Assembly: GCF_001563265.1 (NCBI RefSeq) | Contig: NZ_CP005084.1 | Location: 306,001-370,000, forward strand | Length of the DNA: 64,000 nt | Reading direction: 5' to 3' | DNA from: Sphingobium sp. TKS | GTDB taxonomy: Bacteria; Pseudomonadota; Alphaproteobacteria; Sphingomonadales; Sphingomonadaceae | In this document: piece after piece, positions 4,450 to 42,051 of the stretch | How positions within the stretch are numbered: the first letter of the stretch is position 1 | Layout of the letters: each line of letters opens with the position of its first letter | The notes under the pieces: model-generated | Databases searched by the model: none | What the model saw: the letters and a program-made list of their open reading frames with translations, nothing else | What the model was told of the DNA's origin: nothing | Made by a program: the position numbers and the translations under genes

Positions 4450-4530
4450 CGCGTCGCCCCCTTCCAATTCTCCACGCCAGCCTCTATGCAGTCCGGCGAA
4501 AGCCAGCCTCGGCCAGCTTTCACTGATCGC

Positions 4531-4800
4531 GCCGGTGCCCTCCCAAGGGGCTTAATAGGGAATGCGGTGATGAATCCGCGGCTGTCCCTGCAACTGTAAG
4601 CGGTGAGCGAGACGCATATCGATTCTTCGGACCGCCGGAGAATCAGCCACTGGGCCGGACGCTAAATCCTGCGAGGCCTGGGAAGGCCATGCGTCGAGCC
4701 GAGACCCGTGAGCCAGGAAACCTGCCTGCGTCTGGTCGCTCTTGCCTTGGTCCAGGGGATGGCCGCGGCACGGTACTCCGTCTGAGCGACGCTTTACGCA
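4531..4800 (+). promoter_or_regulatory. Cobalamin riboswitch 1 with P13-type hairpin
   Basis: Adenosylcobalamin-sensing leader. The aptamer core is visible: GGTGCCC at the start, AGGGAATGCGGTG, the L5 region GCTGTCCCTGCAACTGTAAGC, GCCACTG, and the B12 box AGCCAGGAAACCTGCC at about 4711-4726. A distal hairpin follows with outer stem GTCGCTC (4735-4741) / GAGCGAC (4794-4800). Its inner stem GGTC/GGCC closes a loop CAGGGGAT, which can pair with TCCCTG in L5, the kissing contact expected for this RNA class. It controls the cobalt transporter-cobW-cobN-cobO-bluB operon, turning it off when cobalamin is plentiful. Confidence 0.95.
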
Positions 4801-11985: not shown

Positions 11986-12095
11986 CCATTCCCCTCCCGC
12001 CCGCGTAAGGGAGCAAATTCTCCCCACTTCCCTTTCCCCCACTCTGCGCGTATGAACCGCATCCGGAGCGGGCATATGTTCGCTCCATCGATCGC

Positions 12096-12356
12096 GTCGG
12101 TGCCCCGCAAGGGGCTTAAATGGGAACGCGGTGCGGGATGAAACTCCCTAATCCGTGGCTGTCCCTGCAACTGTGAGCGGCGAGCAAGGCAAGGACCGGC
12201 CAACCCCCATCAACCCGGGACGGCCAGCCACTGGAGCAATCCGGGAAGGCCCCCTGCCAAGGCTATGACCCGCAAGCCAGGAGACCTGCCGAACGCAAAG
12301 GTCGCTCTAGCCATGACCCAGGGGATGGTCGCGGCTCGGTTTTCCGCACGAGCGAC
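12096..12356 (+). promoter_or_regulatory. Cobalamin riboswitch 2 with P13-type hairpin
   Basis: Second cobalamin aptamer. It shows GGTGCCCCGCAAGGGGC, GGGAACGCGGTG, the L5 segment GCTGTCCCTGCAACTGTGAGC, GCCACTGG, and the B12 box AGCCAGGAGACCTGCC at about 12275-12290. The distal hairpin repeats riboswitch 1 almost exactly: GTCGCTC (12301-12307) / GAGCGAC (12350-12356), inner stem GACC/GGTC, loop CAGGGGAT. The inner stem differs from riboswitch 1 by compensating changes, which supports its being real. It precedes the cobG-to-cobF operon. Confidence 0.95.
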
Positions 12357-14175: not shown

Positions 14176-14891
14176 CCAACGGCATCATCCATGGCGTAGG
14201 CCTGGGCCCCGGCGCGCAGGACCTGATGAGCGTCCGCGCCGACCGCCTGATCCGCGAAGCCAGCCACGTCGCCTATTTCCGCAAAAGGGGAAAATCCGGC
14301 CATGCCCGCCGGATCGTGGAGGGCATGTTGCGTCCTGACGCCATCGAATATCCGATGGAATATCCGGTGACGACGGAAATCCCGCTGTCCGACCCGCGAT
14401 ATAATGAAGTCCTGTCCGGCTTCTATGCCGATTGCACCGCCCATCTGGACGGGCTTTCCGCCACTGGCGAGGATGTGGTGGTCCTCTGCGAAGGCGATCC
14501 CTTTTTCTACGGCAGCTTCATGCACCTGCACAGCCGTCTCTCGGCGCCGGTAAAGATCGTCCCCGGCATCACCGGCATGTCCGGCGCCTGGACCGCCAGC
14601 GGCATACCGATCAGTTGGGGCGACGATGTGACGACGGTGCTGATGGCTACCTTGCCCGAAGAGGAACTGGCCCGCCGCATCCATGACACCAATGCGCTGG
14701 TCGTCATGAAGATCGGCCGCAACCTCCCCAAGCTCCGCCGCGCCGTCGAAGCGGCCGGCAAGCAGGGCTGCGCCTGGCTGGTGGAATATGCGACCATGGC
14801 CGATCAGCGGATCACGCCTTTGGCGGAGGCAACCGACGTCACCGCCTATTTCTCGATCCTGCTGATCCACGGGCAGGGCCGCCGTCCATGA
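14172..14891 (+). CDS. cobI: Precorrin-2 C20-methyltransferase
   Basis: SAM-dependent tetrapyrrole methylase, 239 aa, converting precorrin-2 to precorrin-3A. It shows the N-terminal GVGLGPGAQDL loop, CEGDPFFYGS and VPGITGMSGA motifs shared by the family. ATG at 14172 overlaps the cobH stop, and the stop overlaps cobJ (ATGA). No SUMT (cobA) gene to feed it precorrin-2 is present in the window. Confidence 0.95.
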   Translation: MTNGIIHGVGLGPGAQDLMSVRADRLIREASHVAYFRKRGKSGHARRIVEGMLRPDAIEYPMEYPVTTEIPLSDPRYNEVLSGFYADCTAHLDGLSATGEDVVVLCEGDPFFYGSFMHLHSRLSAPVKIVPGITGMSGAWTASGIPISWGDDVTTVLMATLPEEELARRIHDTNALVVMKIGRNLPKLRRAVEAAGKQGCAWLVEYATMADQRITPLAEATDVTAYFSILLIHGQGRRP

Positions 14892-15637
14892 CGGGCTGGA
14901 TCGCTATAGCAGGCCTCGGCCCAGGAGCGGACGCGCTTATCACGCCGGAGGTATCGGATGCACTGGCGGAGGCGACCGACGTTATCGGCTATATCCCCTA
15001 TGTCGCCCGCATTGCGGAACGTCCCGGCCTGACGCTCCATGCCACGGACAACCGCGTCGAACTGGATCGCGCCACCCACGCATTGACCCTCGCCGCGCAA
15101 GGGAAGCGGGTTGCGATCGTGTCCTCTGGCGATCCCGGCGTCTTCGCCATGGCCTCCGCCCTGTTCGAGGCGCTCGAAGCAGGCCCGAAGGAATGGCGCA
15201 CGCTCGACATCCGCGTTCTCCCCGGCATCACCGCCATGCTCGCCGCCGCCGCGAAGGCGGGCGCGCCGCTCGGCCATGATTTCTGCGCCATCAACCTGTC
15301 CGACAATCTGAAGCCCTGGCCGCTGATCGAGCGCCGCCTGCGCCTCGCTGTACAGGCCGATTTCGCCATGGCCTTCTACAATCCGCGCTCCAGGTCTCGC
15401 CCTGAAGGCTTCGGACGCGCATTGAATGTCTTGCGCGAGGAATGCGGCGGGGATCGCCTCATCCTGTTCGCCCGCGCCGTCTCGACGCCGGAAGAGAGCC
15501 TGCATATCGTCCCCTTGAGCCGGGCCACCCCGGACATGGCCGACATGCGCACCATCGTCATCGTCGGGTCCAGCCGCACCCGCCTGATCGAGCGGCCCGG
15601 CCAGCCCATCCTCTACACCCCGCGCTCTGCCGCATGA
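14888..15637 (+). CDS. cobJ: Precorrin-3B C17-methyltransferase
   Basis: Tetrapyrrole methylase, 249 aa, that methylates C17 and contracts the ring, giving precorrin-4. Motifs are AGLGPGADALITPE near the N-terminus, SSGDPGVFAMAS, and LPGITAMLAAAAKAGAPLGHD. A single-domain CobJ, not fused to CobG or CbiG. Its last 25 bases overlap the 3' end of cobK, which runs the other way. Confidence 0.95.
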   Translation: MTGWIAIAGLGPGADALITPEVSDALAEATDVIGYIPYVARIAERPGLTLHATDNRVELDRATHALTLAAQGKRVAIVSSGDPGVFAMASALFEALEAGPKEWRTLDIRVLPGITAMLAAAAKAGAPLGHDFCAINLSDNLKPWPLIERRLRLAVQADFAMAFYNPRSRSRPEGFGRALNVLREECGGDRLILFARAVSTPEESLHIVPLSRATPDMADMRTIVIVGSSRTRLIERPGQPILYTPRSAA

Positions 15638-16362
15638 CCCAGCCATTCCAGCACCCCGACGACCTCATGCGTCACCCGCGCGGCGGGACAGGGGGGGCGG
15701 TCGATCATCACGACCGGCAGCCCCAGCGACCGAGCCGCGATCAGCTTCGCTTGCGCGCCGCTGCCCCCCGCATTTTTCGAAACGACGAAGTCGATGCCAT
15801 GATCGCGCATCAACCTTATGTCTCCATAGGTGGTGAAAGGCCCCCGGTCGACGATCAGACTATGACGCGGCAGTCCCGGTGGGTGTTCCGGCTTGTCGAC
15901 AAAGCGCAACAGATAATGATGCTGCGGCTGTACGGCGAAAGCGTCGACATGCATTCGTCCCAACGCCAGCATCACATTCCGGGCGGGGCCGTTCAGCGTC
16001 GCCACGGCTCCGGCAATGTCCGGTACATGCGTCCAGCGATCCCCCTCCGCCGCAACCCAGGGCGGTCTGGTCAGCATGATATGCTCCACTCCGGCCTCTC
16101 GCGCAGCCGTCACGGCATGCTCGCTCATCGTCGCGGCGAAGGGATGGGTCGCATCGACCAGATGGGTGATGCCCTCGTCCCGCAAATGGCGAACCAGCCC
16201 CGCGATGCCGCCAAAGCCGCCGACGCGCACCGGCACCGGTTGCGCCCGTGGCTTGTCCGTCCGCCCGGCATAGCTCAACACAGCGGGCGCGCGTCGCTCG
16301 GCCAGTGCCGTAGCGAGTGCGCTGGCCTCGGTCGTCCCGCCCAATATGAGGATATTGGAAAT
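15613..16362 (-). CDS. cobK: Precorrin-6A reductase, antisense within the cob operon
   Basis: NADPH-dependent reductase giving precorrin-6B, 249 aa. The Rossmann opening ILILGGTTEA is at about residues 4-13, HLVDATHPFAATMSEHA near 70, and KNAGGSGAQAKL near the end. Between the in-frame stop and the glycine loop there is no ATG, GTG or usable TTG: TTG at 16344 would remove the first beta strand. ATT at 16362 has AGGAG 8 bases upstream and gives MSNILILGG, so I take it as the start. The gene is wholly antisense to any transcript joining cobJ and cobL. Confidence 0.92.
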   Translation of the reverse strand: MSNILILGGTTEASALATALAERRAPAVLSYAGRTDKPRAQPVPVRVGGFGGIAGLVRHLRDEGITHLVDATHPFAATMSEHAVTAAREAGVEHIMLTRPPWVAAEGDRWTHVPDIAGAVATLNGPARNVMLALGRMHVDAFAVQPQHHYLLRFVDKPEHPPGLPRHSLIVDRGPFTTYGDIRLMRDHGIDFVVSKNAGGSGAQAKLIAARSLGLPVVMIDRPPCPAARVTHEVVGVLEWLGHAAERGV

Positions 16363-17584
16363 GCCCGAAGCTCCTGAAGGTCACTGGCCTGACGGTCCAT
16401 GGCTGACGATCGTCGGGATCGGGGAAGACGGCCTGGATGGCCTGTCGTCCGCCGCCCGCGACGCGCTGGAGGACGCCGCGCTCATCATGGGAGCGCCGCG
16501 CCACCTCGCGCTGCTGCCTGCCTTTAAGGCGGAAACCCTGAGCTGGCCAGTCCCGTTCGAAGAGGGCGTTCGGGCGTTGCTGGCCCGGCGTGGCAAACCC
16601 ACCGTCATGCTGGCCTCGGGCGATCCCTTCTGGTTCGGCGCGGGCGCCAGCGTCACGCGGCATCTGGAGCGGCAGGAATGGACGGCCCACCCCGCACCGT
16701 CCACCTTTGCCCTCGCCGCCGCCCGACTCGGCTGGCCGCTTCAGGATACGGAATGCCACGGTCTCCATGCCGCGCCGCTGACACGGCTGCGCCCAAGCCT
16801 CGTGCCGGGCCGCCGCGCCATCCTGCTGCTGCGCGACGGCCCGGCGGTGAGTGAACTGGCTGCCTGGCTGAAAGAGCAAGGATTCGGCACCTCGACGATC
16901 CATGTGCTGGAAGCGCTGGGCGGCCCGCGCGAGCGCATCCGCCAAAGCACGGCGGAAACGCTGAACTTTGCCGACATCGCCCATCCCGTCGCGGTCGGCC
17001 TGTCGATGACGGGCGAAGGCCGGACACTCCCCCGCTCCAGCGGTATCCCCGACGACTGGTTCGACCATGACGGCCAGATCACCAAGCGCCCCGCCCGCGC
17101 CCTGACCCTGTCCGCGCTGGCGCCCCGCCCCAGTGAAACGCTTTGGGACATAGGGGCAGGGTCCGGCTCGATCGCCATAGAATGGCTGCTCGCCCATTCC
17201 TTGACGAATGCGGTCGCTTTCGAAGCCGATCCCGAACGCGCCGAACGCGCCCGCGCCAATGCCCTGGCATTGGGGGTGGACCGCCTGACCGTCATCGAAG
17301 GCAGAGCCCCGGACATTCTGGGCGGCCGGTCCCGCCCCGACGCCGTCTTCATCGGTGGGGGTCTCAGCCAAGCTCTGCTTGAAACGCTGTTCGCCCTGCC
17401 CGGCGGACCCACGCGCCTCGTCGCCAACGCCGTTACATTGGAATCCGAAACGCTGCTCGCCCAATGGCATGCCGCCAAGGGCGGCGAGCTGCTCCGCATC
17501 GAACTCGCGCAGGCAGCGCCCCTCGGCACCCGTCGCGGCTGGCGTTCCGCCTATCCGCTGGTGCAGTGGAGCGTCACGCTATGA
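16361..17584 (+). CDS. cobL: Precorrin-6Y C5,15-methyltransferase (decarboxylating)
   Basis: Fused CbiE-CbiT enzyme, 407 aa, that adds methyls at C5 and C15 and removes the C12 carboxyl. The N-terminal methylase has [23 protein letters not shown] and a [14 protein letters not shown] segment. The C-terminal CbiT domain has the SAM loop [14 protein letters not shown] near residue 262. I choose ATG 16361 because GAGGA sits 8 bases upstream; ATG 16346 has no such site. The start codon overlaps the cobK start on the other strand. Confidence 0.95.
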
Positions 17585-17946
17585 TCGTCGCCGGCTTCGG
17601 CTTCCGGACCAGCGCCTCCCTCGCCTCACTGGAAGCCGCGCTGGAAGAGGCGACGGGCGCCAAGATTACCGTGGATGCGCTCGCCACGCTGGATCGCAAA
17701 GCCGACCAGCTCGCCCCATTGGCGCACAAGCTGTCCCTCCCCCTCATCGCCATCACAGCGGACCGTCTGGCCAATCAACGGACGCTCACGCGATCTCCCG
17801 CCAGCATCGCCGCTTATGGCACCGGCAGCGTGGCCGAAGCCGCCGCTCTCGCCGCCCTCGCCCCCAATGCGCGCCTTCTTGCCCCCCGCGCCTTCTCGCC
17901 CGACCGCCGGGCGAGCTGCGCCCTTGCCGAAAGCCTCCTCCCATGA
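17581..17946 (+). CDS. cobE: CobE / CbiG C-terminal domain protein
   Basis: Small 121-aa protein matching the C-terminal domain of CbiG ([40 protein letters not shown]). CobE is needed in the aerobic pathway, but its exact reaction is unsettled; a role around the ring-contracted intermediates is usually assumed. ATG overlaps the cobL stop, and the stop overlaps cobM. Confidence 0.9.
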
Positions 17947-28785: not shown

Positions 28786-29916
28786 ATGCCCAGCCGCCTT
28801 TCTGCCCTCCGGATCGCCCCCATCGCGCTTTGTGCGCTGGTCGCCGCCTGCGGTCACAGGGAACCGCCGAAAAAAGGGCCGGTCGAGGTCGGCGTGGTGA
28901 CGCTGACGACGCAGAATGTAACGGTGTCCACCGAATTGCCGGGCCGCACCGCCTCCACCATGATGTCGGAGGTCAGGCCGCAGGTGGCAGGCGTCGTCCA
29001 GAAGCGCCTCTTCACCGAAGGCTCCTATGTGACGGCGGGCCAGCCGCTCTACCAGATCGATCCCTCGCTCTACCGCGCCTCCCGCGACGAGGCGCAGGCG
29101 ACCCTGGCGAGCGCGCAGGCGACCGCCGCCGCCGCCCAGGCCAGGGCCAATCGCTACCGCGCCCTTGGCCAGAGCGAGGCAGTGAGCGCGCAGGATCGCG
29201 ACGATGTGATCGCCACCGCCCGCCAGGCCGCTGCCGCCGTGAGCCAAGCCCGCGCCACGCTCCAGACCACGGGCATCAACCTCAATTTCACCCAGGTCCG
29301 TGCCCCGATCAGCGGGCGCATCGGCCGATCCTCAGTCACGCCCGGTGCGCTGGTGACCGCCAGCCAGACGACAGCGCTCGCCACCATCCAGCAGCTTGAC
29401 CCGATCTTCGTGGACGTGACGCAGTCCAGCGCAAAGCTGCTCCAATTGCGCCGCGCCCTCGCCGCCGGCAACGCGCTGCCCGCCAGCGCCACGATCCGGC
29501 TGAAACTGGACGACGGCACCGACTATCCGCTCGAAGGCCGCATCGAATTTGCCGAGCCGATCGTCGATCCGGACAGCGGCACCGTCACGCTGCGCGCCCG
29601 CTTCCCCAATCCCGACAGCCTGCTGCTGCCCGGCATGTTCGTGCGCGTCGTCGCCCCGCAATCGGTCGTTCCTAACGCCATATTGGTGCCGCAACAGGGC
29701 ATCAGCCGCGACCCCAAGGGCAACGCCACCGCTCTGGTCGTGGACAAGTCGGGCAAGGTCGAACGCCGAATCGTCACCGCCGCGCAAGCCGTGGGTGACA
29801 AATGGCTGATCACCAGCGGGCTTAAAAAGGGCGACAGGCTGATCGTCGAAGGCACCGACAAGGTGCAGCCCGGCGACGCTGTGAAACCCGTGCCCGTCGA
29901 TCAGGCCGCGAAATAA
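28786..29916 (+). CDS. RND efflux periplasmic adaptor lipoprotein (MexA/AcrA type)
   Basis: Membrane-fusion protein, 376 aa. The start ATG 28786 gives a proper lipoprotein signal with the lipobox LVAAC (Cys22), so the frame open further upstream is not used. The order is lipoyl half (PQVAGVVQKRLF), alpha-hairpin rich in Ala/Gln, lipoyl half (RAPISGRIGRS), and beta-barrel. It links the inner-membrane pump to the outer-membrane channel. First gene of the pump operon. Confidence 0.95.
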   Translation: MPSRLSALRIAPIALCALVAACGHREPPKKGPVEVGVVTLTTQNVTVSTELPGRTASTMMSEVRPQVAGVVQKRLFTEGSYVTAGQPLYQIDPSLYRASRDEAQATLASAQATAAAAQARANRYRALGQSEAVSAQDRDDVIATARQAAAAVSQARATLQTTGINLNFTQVRAPISGRIGRSSVTPGALVTASQTTALATIQQLDPIFVDVTQSSAKLLQLRRALAAGNALPASATIRLKLDDGTDYPLEGRIEFAEPIVDPDSGTVTLRARFPNPDSLLLPGMFVRVVAPQSVVPNAILVPQQGISRDPKGNATALVVDKSGKVERRIVTAAQAVGDKWLITSGLKKGDRLIVEGTDKVQPGDAVKPVPVDQAAK

Positions 29917-29928
29917 GGGGTCGAGACC

Positions 29929-32900
29929 TTGCTCAGCCGCTTTTTCATCGAACGGCCCATTTTCGCCTGGGTCATCGCCATCGGCATCATGATGGCGGGC
30001 CTGGGCGCTATGCTGACCCTGCCGATCGCCCAATATCCCGACATCGCCCCGCCGTCGGTCAATATCAGCGCCAACTATCCCGGCGCCTCCGCCGAAACCG
30101 TCGAGACCAGCGTCACCCAGGTCATCGAGCAGCAACTCACCGGCATAGACGGCCTCATGTATTTCTCCTCCTCGTCGACCGCCAACGGTCAGGCGCGGAT
30201 CACCGTCACCTTCAAGAAGGGCACCGATCCCGACACCGCGCAGGTGCAGGTGCAGAACAAAGTGCAGCAGGCGCTGAGTCGCCTGCCCAACGCCGTGCAG
30301 CAACAGGGTCTGACCGTCACCAAATCGCAGAACGACTTTTTGATGGTGGTCGGCCTCTACGACCGGACCGACACGGCGTCTCAGGCTGATATTGCCGACT
30401 ATCTGGTCAATAATTTCCAGGATCCCATCGCTCGCGTCGACGGCGTGGGTTCCTCGCAGATCTTCGGATCGCAATATGCGATGCGCATCTGGCTGGACCC
30501 CTATAAGCTGGCGACGGTCAAGCTGATGCCGTCCGACGTGCAAAGCGCCATCGCCAGCCAGAATGTCGAAGTGTCGGCAGGCCAGATCGGCGCCGATCCC
30601 GCGCCGGAGGGGCAGCAACTCAACGCCACCGTCACCGCCCGAGCCCGCCTGCAAACGCCCGAGCAGTTCCGCAATATCATCGTCAAGACGCAGAGCGACG
30701 GTTCGGTCGTCCACCTGTCCGACGTGGCTCGGGTCGAACTGGGCAATGAAAGCTACACTTCCTCCGCCCGCCTGAACGGCCATCCGGCAACAGGCATGGC
30801 GCTGCAGCTCGCGCCGGGCGCCGACGCGCTCAAGACCGCGGAGCTGGTCAAGGCCAGAGTGGCGCAGCTGTCGACCAACCTGCCGCACGGCTACACCGTC
30901 ACCTATCCCCGCGACACCACGCCCTTCATCAAGCTATCGGTCGAGGAAGTCGTTCAGACGCTGATCGAAGCGGTCGGGCTGGTCGTGGTGGTGATGTTCC
31001 TCTTCCTGCAAAGCTGGCGCGCCACTTTGGTGCCCGCCATCGCCGTGCCGGTGGTGCTGCTCGGCACGTTCGGCGTGCTGGCGCTGTTCGGCTATTCGAT
31101 CAACACGCTGACCCTGTTCGGCATGGTGCTGGCGATCGGCCTGCTGGTCGACGACGCCATCGTCGTGGTCGAAAATGTCGAACGCATCATGGAGGAGGAA
31201 GGACTTTCCCCGCGTGACGCCACCATCAAGTCGATGGAGGAAATCGGCAACGCCCTGATCGGCATCGCCCTTGTCCTGTCCGCCGTGCTGCTGCCCATGG
31301 CCTTTTTCGGCGGGTCGACGGGCGTCATCTATCGCCAATTCTCGATCACCATCGTTTCCTCGATGCTGCTTTCGGTGCTGGTCGCGCTGATCCTCTCCCC
31401 CGCGCTCTGCGCCACGATCCTGAAACCCATAGCCGAGGAGCATCGCGAACGCGGCTGGACCGGCAGGTTCAACCGCTGGTTCAGCCGCGTCACCAACGGC
31501 TATATGACGCGGCTCAACGGCTTCATCGGCCGCCGGACCTTTTTCTGGATCGGCTATGCCGTCATCCTCGCCCTGCTCTGGCTGCTGTTCGTCCGCCTGC
31601 CGACCAGCTTCCTGCCGGTGGAGGATCAGGGGCAGGTGATGGTTCAGATCACCCTGCCCGCCGGCGCAAAATCCTCCCGCACGGCTGCCGCGGTGGAGCG
31701 CGTCCAGAATTATTTCATGAGCGATGAAAAGGACAATGTCGCCTTCGCCTTCGTCACCCAGGGCTTCAGTTTCGCGGGACAGGGCGAAAATACCGCGCAA
31801 GGGTTTATCAACCTGGCCCCATGGGACGAGCGCAAGGGGGCGGCCAACAGCGCGACGATGATCGCGAACCGCGCCACCAAGCAGCTCGCCGCGATCCGCG
31901 ATGCGAAGGCGCTGGCGATGACCCCGCCCTCCATTCGCGGCCTGGGCCAGTCCAACGGCTTCACCTTCGAGCTGCTGAACACCGGCGGCCTCAGCCGCGA
32001 GCGCTTTCTAGCGCTGCGCAACCAGCTCATGAAGGCCGCGGCAAACGACCCGAAGCTGGCGGGCGTGCGCGCCGCCACGCTGGAGGACACGCCGCAGCTC
32101 AAGGTCGACGTTGATTCCGAGAAACTCGCCGTCCTCGGCCTTACCCAAAACAGCGTCGACAATGTGCTGAGCGCCGCCTGGGGCAGCACCTATATCAACG
32201 ATTTCGTCGACCGTGGCCGGGTGAAGCGCGTCTATATGCAAGCCGACGCGCCATATCGCGCGCTGCCGACGGACCTCGACAACTGGCAGGTGCGGTCCAG
32301 CACCACCGGCGAAATGGTGCCCTTTTCCGCCTTTGCCACCACCCATTGGACGATGGGGCCGACCACCGTTTCGCGCTATAACGGCCAGTCCTCCTATGAA
32401 ATCCAGGGCCAGGCCGCGCCGGGCGCCAGTTCGGGCGAAGCGATGGACGAGATGGTGAAGCTGCAAAAGCAGCTCCCGCCCGGCACCAGCTATGCCTGGA
32501 GCGGCCTGTCCTATCAGGAGCAGCTTTCCGGCGGGCAGGCACCGCTGCTCTATAGCCTGTCGGTGCTGGTGGTATTCCTGTGCCTCGCCGCGCTCTATGA
32601 AAGCTGGTCGATCCCGCTCGCGGTGCTGCTGGTCATCCCGCTCGGCCTGATCGGCGCGGTGCTGGCGGTGACGCTGCGCGGGCTGGAGAACAACATCTAT
32701 TTCCAGGTCGGCCTGCTCACAACCATGGGTCTGGCCGCCAAGAACGCGATCCTGATCGTCGAATTCGCGGAACTCGCCTATCTGCAGGGCAAGGACGCCA
32801 CGGCCGCCGCTCTGGAGGCCGCGCGCCTGCGCTTCCGCCCGATCCTGATGACTTCGCTGGCCTTCATCGCGGGCGTCATCCCCCTGGCCATCGCCACGGG

Positions 32901-41790: not shown

Positions 41791-42016
41791 GTCGCTTCGC
41801 GAGGGAAAACCCCGTTCGGCCGGCGCACCCTGTCCGGTCGAAGAACGACTGCGTCAGGCAGGTCTCCTGGCTCACGGGTCGATGCTTCCCGGCCGCCTTC
41901 TCGGAACCTTGTCCCAATGGCGTGATGGCCGGATCGCTCGCCGCTTACAGTTGCAGGGGCAGCGCGAGCCTTCCACCCGACTTCCCTTTTCATCCCCTTT
42001 CGGGGAACCTGTCGCG
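41791..42016 (-). promoter_or_regulatory. Cobalamin riboswitch 3 with P13-type hairpin
   Basis: On the minus strand the aptamer shows GGTTCCCCGAAAGGGGA, GGGAAGTCGGGTGGAA, the L5 segment GCTGCCCCTGCAACTGTAAGC and the B12 box AGCCAGGAGACCTGCC (about 41858-41873). The distal hairpin has GTCGT/GCGAC at its base, a CCGG/CCGG inner stem and a loop with CAGGG (41828-41832), again complementary to CCCTG of L5. It leads the DUF1636-cobT-phosphatase-cobS-cobD-cbiB-cobU operon. Confidence 0.95.
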
Positions 42017-42022
42017 CCGATG

Positions 42023-42051
42023 CTGATAAAGACCCCGTCGTCCCATCGCAA
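42023..42051 (-). promoter_or_regulatory. Candidate promoter of the riboswitch-3 operon
   Basis: On the minus strand TTGCGA (42046-42051), 17 bases, then TATCAG (42023-42028), a fair sigma-70-type promoter. Its expected start would be at about 42016, where the aptamer begins. Confidence 0.45.

Follow-up and report, generated by a model that had tools for sequence, protein, structure and literature searches.

Which codon starts cobK in Sphingobium sp. TKS, and how might a gene for a biosynthetic enzyme have come to use it? We analyzed a stretch of 64,000 nucleotides (contig NZ_CP005084.1, positions 306,001 to 370,000 of the forward strand), referred to as the window, in which cobK and cobL meet head to head. 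A preliminary description of this DNA had claimed that the two start codons overlap in mirror image, with an ATT as the start of cobK, and had inferred a low, tuned level of cobK and a base-by-base constraint between the two genes. We re-read the junction and compared it with the corresponding region in related genomes.

The cobK/cobL junction

Read directly, the plus strand carries the tetramer AATG at the junction, two bases of which are common to both start codons (Table 1). The re-read sequence bears out the described layout throughout. The ATG of cobL and the ATT of cobK lie on opposite strands as mirror images, GAGGA and AGGAG are found 8 bases ahead of the respective codon, and the cobK frame is closed seven codons upstream by a TGA. 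Ahead of the glycine loop there is neither ATG nor GTG in the cobK frame, and the sole ATG, GTG or TTG after the TGA is TTG 16344, a start at which would cost CobK six residues and with them most of the first strand (I-L-I). Of the 1052 ATT triplets on both strands of the window, 3 have an AGGAG exactly 8 nt ahead of them, the cobK start among them. By its sequence cobK falls into the class of AUH starts, with a TGA at −7 codons, only a TTG without Shine–Dalgarno (SD) pairing at +6, and AGGAG at 8 nt. Most likely cobK starts at ATT, backed by its SD site; the position of the codon is conserved, the SD spacing fits, and there is no better alternative, in agreement with the earlier preference for ATT over TTG 16344. 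The cobL start is likely at 16361, a site kept in relatives, and a second in-frame ATG at 16346 is also possible in the window.

CobK is encoded by a single gene in the genome (E ≤ 0.001). It matches PF02571 over residues 3–241 (E 2.7e-70, 237 bits vs a cut-off of 28.6) and NF005968 with 329.8 bits (cut-off 231), and with family models above their curated cut-offs over the full length it is a member of the CobK/CbiJ precorrin-6A reductases. In the alignment with PDB chain 4x7g_A, a precorrin-6A reductase which we take to be from Rhodobacter capsulatus, residue 2 is aligned to residue 2 of the ATT-started CobK, and the ATT codon occupies position 1.

The gene order is cobJ > < cobK cobL >, cobK being inverted within a co-directional run on the plus strand, which is the inverted-gene arrangement of a noncontiguous operon. 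Sharing 2 bp at their 5′ ends on opposite strands, cobK and cobL are a divergent overlapping pair, and the annotation of Sphingobium sp. TomMM7A has a 2-bp overlap of cobK and cobL as well. The 3′ ends of cobK and cobJ also overlap, by 25 bp (window 15613–15637), so that cobK shares bases at each end with an opposite-strand gene; the position of the cobJ tail is similar in many relatives.

Besides the cobalamin riboswitch listed in Table 1, the window contains two further RF00174 riboswitches (4516–4743, plus strand; 41840–42027, minus strand). Since a riboswitch stands ahead of the plus-strand run and none was found near cobK on its own strand at Rfam gathering thresholds, the regulation of cobK may differ from that of its neighbours or run via antisense read-through as in noncontiguous operons. 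There were no Rfam matches in loci L028 and L153. A consensus scan of 15500–17700 returned no promoter-like or terminator-like sites, which does not decide the question of co-transcription, and the predicted mRNA folding at the junction was on neither strand better than that of shuffled sequences (z 0.56 and 0.39).

Table 1. Features of the cobK/cobL region, in window coordinates
Feature	Position	Strand	Remarks
ATT, most likely start codon of cobK	16360..16362	-	third base 16360 alone outside cobL ATG
ATG, likely start codon of cobL	16361..16363	+	ATG in 161/167 loci (8 counted at shifted site), GTG in 5, disrupted in 1
Shared start tetramer AATG	16360..16363	.	CATG palindrome in most relatives
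AGGAG, putative SD site of cobK	16371..16375	-	8 nt before ATT
GAGGA, SD-like site of cobL	16348..16352	+	8 nt before ATG; GAGGA at 8 nt in 41/167 loci
In-frame TGA closing cobK frame upstream	16381..16383	-	sequence
TTG, alternative cobK start picked by ORF callers (243 aa)	16342..16344	-	no SD pairing found ahead
cobK, precorrin-6A reductase	15613..16362	-	249 aa if ATT-started; PF02571, NF005968, PDB 4x7g_A
cobL, precorrin-6Y C5,15-methyltransferase (CbiE + CbiT)	16361..17584	+	TIGR02467, TIGR02469 above cut-off
cobJ, precorrin-3B C17-methyltransferase	14888..15637	+	TIGR01466 above cut-off
Cobalamin riboswitch ahead of plus-strand cob run	12081..12308	+	RF00174, 95.2 bits, gathering 31.5

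Start codons at the junction in related genomes

CobK matches were obtained in 51 of 94 genomes of the genus, 20 of 397 of the family, 134 of 385 of the class and 93 of 295 of a second large genus of the family; further sources were three small genome sets, named genomes (23 loci) and plasmids (268 records matched). All 51 matched loci of the genus were read, and among the other matches 61 of 133 class genomes (own genome excluded), 92 of 93 in the second large genus and 3 of 268 plasmid records. From the 245 loci examined, 15 duplicates and L083, which had no cobK hit, were dropped, leaving 229 distinct loci, in 190 of which cobL lies head to head with cobK. Our main count comprises the 167 head-to-head loci whose CobK is 52% or more identical to that of the window, a cut-off that we chose ourselves. 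The 23 head-to-head loci below it include two with CATG (L082, L089) and one with ATT and then ATG (L090), and in most other loci of lower identity the two starts are seemingly apart, as judged from the position of the cobL match only. The cobK of L231 (G1003), a sphingomonad, gave two overlapping partial matches, as a frameshift or an assembly error would produce.

In 145 of the 167 loci the shared tetramer reads CATG, with an ATG on each strand; AATG was found in 13, GATG in 2, TATG in 1 and NGTG in 5, and one junction is disrupted. This comparison, proposed in the preliminary description, shows CATG to be the usual state. The 145 CATG loci consist of 137 at the same codon and 8 shifted by 1–6 codons upstream, the cobL start at the shifted sites being assumed. 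L119 was counted as CATG for its ATG six codons upstream, the aligned codon being ACG in cobK and GTG in cobL, and in one ATG/ATG row the cobL match is out of phase. At the same position as in the window the cobK codon is ATG in 137, ATT in 13, ATC in 2 and ATA in 1 of the 167 loci; one of these 16 AUH loci, L088, has an ATG of its own one codon later.

A GTG or TTG of cobK at the shared site was found in none of the 167 loci, and a cobK ATG paired with a changed cobL ATG in none of the 145 CATG loci. Where cobL has GTG (5 loci) cobK always has ACN. In such loci the cobK start seems to have moved, to judge from L070, with a possible GTG start that follows GGGGAGG three codons upstream, and from L245, with a possible ATG start at the next codon; in L120 no other cobK start lies within 15 codons upstream. 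The only changes observed are those of the cobK wobble base, or a cobL GTG together with a cobK ACN. The proposed base-by-base constraint holds up here, since GTG and TTG are missing in cobK and any non-wobble change would alter the cobL ATG. Apparently the neighbour's start codon blocks the GUG and UUG routes and leaves cobK only rare starts such as ATT. Genome-wide, 363 switches to GUG, 113 to UUG, 2 to CUG and 1 to AUU were counted among 61,358 reconstructed AUG starts, an annotation-based figure in the available text of PMC5622118. CATG occurs beyond the family in Nioella and Rhodobacter loci, and from this spread it is probably the older state.

The codon ATT is present in 8 of the 51 loci of the genus (window included) and in 2 of the 92 loci read in the second large genus. 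On a CobK tree of all 167 rows at least 9 changes are required to explain ATT, and starred branches force 3 of them; a tree of 54 rows of our choice (13 ATT rows plus 41 without it) requires 8 and forces 4, gains and reversals being pooled in both counts. A single ATT clade is rejected on the 54-row tree (AU test, p-AU 6e-45). With pN/pS values of 0.19–0.31 in eight pairs, and 0.22–0.31 between the window and four relatives, cobK is by this measure under purifying selection.

We consider it likely that the CATG lock limits cobK to drift of the third base, which led to AUU, and that initiation is kept by the AGGAG 8 nt upstream in a manner resembling infC. In most sphingomonad loci the head-to-head genes share the palindrome CATG, in which each ATG uses two bases of the other. 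The ATG of cobL would fix the first two bases of the cobK start and leave the third alone free, allowing AUU, AUC and AUA, and this third base would have changed in several lineages, the window included, making the cobK start AUU. Ribosomes would bind AGGAG and initiate CobK at AUU with the same N-terminus as in the ATG relatives and in 4x7g. The strong AGGAG exactly 8 nt upstream may compensate for AUU, in the layout AGGAG-N8-AUA/AUC of infC, and the AUU may make cobK somewhat sensitive to IF3. If the cobL ATG at 16346 is used, the lock would be loosened in the window.

The Shine–Dalgarno site and the comparison with infC

At exactly 8 nt ahead of the start codon, GGAG is found in 13/13 ATT loci vs 30/145 CATG loci and the full AGGAG in 11/13 vs 5/145. 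The ATT loci L172 and L175 have GGAG without AGGAG, and the ATA locus L066 has neither. The median SD pairing energy is −6.9 kcal/mol in the ATT loci vs −4.7 kcal/mol in the CATG loci. The association of the SD site with ATT gives p of about 1e-11 in a Fisher test that ignores kinship; corrected for kinship, only three supported independent pairs are left, in which on average the SD site differs the same way in 0.9, the opposite way in 0 and not at all in 2.1, without significance. In a 50-kb stretch of the S. herbicidovorans plasmid pMSHV, AGGAG at 8 nt precedes none of the 42 annotated starts, and GGAG one.

The low, tuned level of cobK that had been proposed finds no support in these data: the SD sites of the ATT loci are better placed and on average stronger than those of the ATG loci. 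A strong SD site would speak for compensation no less than for low expression. That the SD site can make up for a weak start is described in PMC5622118, and the likeness is that a weaker start goes with a stronger SD; that description, as far as its available text goes, concerns GUG and UUG, whereas the cobK case concerns AUU. For alphaproteobacteria the same text reports no significant difference in SD conservation.

As a yardstick we used infC of Sphingobium, for which 41 genomes were searched, 40 had a match, and 30 loci were returned and read (L246, the own genome, and L247–L275). AGGAG-N8 leads to an in-frame ATA in 28 and to an ATC in 2 of these 30 loci, and a downstream ATG lies at a distance of four codons in 29 and of five codons in one. 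The infC of the genus likely starts at AUA or AUC, which suggests autocontrol by IF3 in the genus. According to the available text of PMC5472188, infC starts with ATT in E. coli and with ATC in Streptomyces and is under IF3 autocontrol, and Streptomyces sigR has a GTC start that is repressed by IF3.

infC and the ATT-type cobK are alike in having an AUH start with AGGAG 8 nt ahead (30/30 in infC, 11/13 in cobK). They differ in that cobK does not encode IF3, hence no autocontrol loop arises, and in that its ATT would come from the overlap of start codons. With sigR (PMC5472188) cobK has in common that its start is non-canonical although the gene is not infC; sigR, unlike cobK, belongs to a co-directional operon and was tested by experiment, whereas the cobK start is predicted from sequence. 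Given the same layout as in infC of the genus, IF3 sensitivity of cobK is plausible.

This layout also bears on whether ATT was selected as a means of keeping cobK low or placing it under IF3 gating, like infC or sigR (PMC5472188). We regard this as unlikely, although the infC-like arrangement has these two precedents. Several separate changes to ATT would fit selection, and so would the ratio of 13 ATT to 1 ATA, rows that are not independent, though ATA needs only a transition; yet the lock alone accounts for AUH rather than GUG or UUG. The SD sites of the ATT loci are moreover stronger, not weaker, and close relatives have kept ATG. The reading in which the lock limits cobK to third-base drift, with AGGAG sustaining initiation, is the one that we prefer.

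Internal starts, annotation and wider meaning

It is very improbable that translation of cobK begins at TTG 16344, or at some other near-cognate codon inside the gene, with loss of the first six residues. TTG belongs to the usual start codons and was picked by the ORF listing, but such a start removes the strand before the glycine loop, which is present in 4x7g_A, and a duplex scan found no SD pairing ahead of it; on these two grounds we ruled it out as the likely start. Several database CobK proteins do begin at the TTG site with 243 aa, but these calls are not telling, as P0045 equals the protein of L059, whose locus has ATG. The TTG is also absent here in 8 of the 13 ATT loci (L004, L025, L054, L069, L078, L153, L172 and L175).

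The upstream frame is closed by a TGA in L028 as in the window. L078 has no ATG, GTG or TTG from −30 to +11 codons, and L002 and L052 have only the TTG at +6, with no SD pairing ahead of it. A longer CobK is possible in L004, L025, L054, L055, L153, L175 and L228, where an ATG lies upstream in frame and is preceded by some SD pairing.

The NCBI-named proteins P0003, P0009, P0014, P0015 and P0039 are the ATT-started translations of L028, L004, L054, L055 and L069. They lend the ATT start weak support, because similar annotation gives ATA or ATT starts to 2 of 42 complete genes in the 50-kb stretch of pMSHV. These two are an alpha/beta hydrolase gene at 29018 (plus strand of L276), whose annotated ATA start has a GTG as the next codon, and bluB at 30560 (minus strand) with an ATT start; annotated AUH starts such as this pair need care. 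The protein of L004 is 249 aa in one source and 222 aa in another.

That ATT is a sequencing error, or cobK a decaying pseudogene, has next to no probability and was ruled out: relatives do mostly have ATG at this codon, which the preliminary description would have taken together with an error here as a refutation, yet another 12 distinct loci have the same ATT and do not make up one clade with it, and the frame is intact, single copy and under purifying selection.

AUU starts and divergent overlaps are known kinds of features, and ATT-started NCBI-named proteins already exist for five relatives. Divergent overlaps are strongly under-represented, with more of them in a few alphaproteobacteria such as Caulobacter, in the available text of PMC2174442. 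Like the pairs treated there, cobK and cobL are on opposite strands with overlapping 5′ ends; unlike other divergent overlaps, theirs consists of two bases only, lies within both start codons and is kept across many genera. The noncontiguous operon menE-menC-MW1733-ytkD-MW1731 of S. aureus, as presented in the available text of PMC7154746, has one inverted gene in a co-directional run, as is the case for cobK; for cobJ-cobK-cobL the likeness is one of gene order. In the titles and abstract openings that were covered, a scope with most subscription journals outside it, neither the overlap of the cobK and cobL starts nor the CATG lock, the skewed codon spectrum or the infC layout is named.

AGGAG, 8 nt and AUH together make a suggested sequence rule for real AUU, AUA and AUC starts, which gene callers can miss. 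Switches from AUG to AUU are almost unseen genome-wide in the annotation-based count given above (1/61,358; PMC5622118, available text), yet they are recurrent at the cobK codon. The junction offers a natural experiment on the evolution of start codons, in which ATT relatives can be set against matched ATG relatives that differ in the SD site. A bolder idea, which we hold to be quite doubtful, is that the CATG lock acts as an evolutionary trap, repeatedly pushing cobK into AUH, and that the sphingobia made cobK a second IF3-gated gene, with AGGAG-N8-AUH as the signal. If this were true, B12 synthesis would be tied to the capacity for translation initiation, while the rest of the cluster would answer to the B12 riboswitch.
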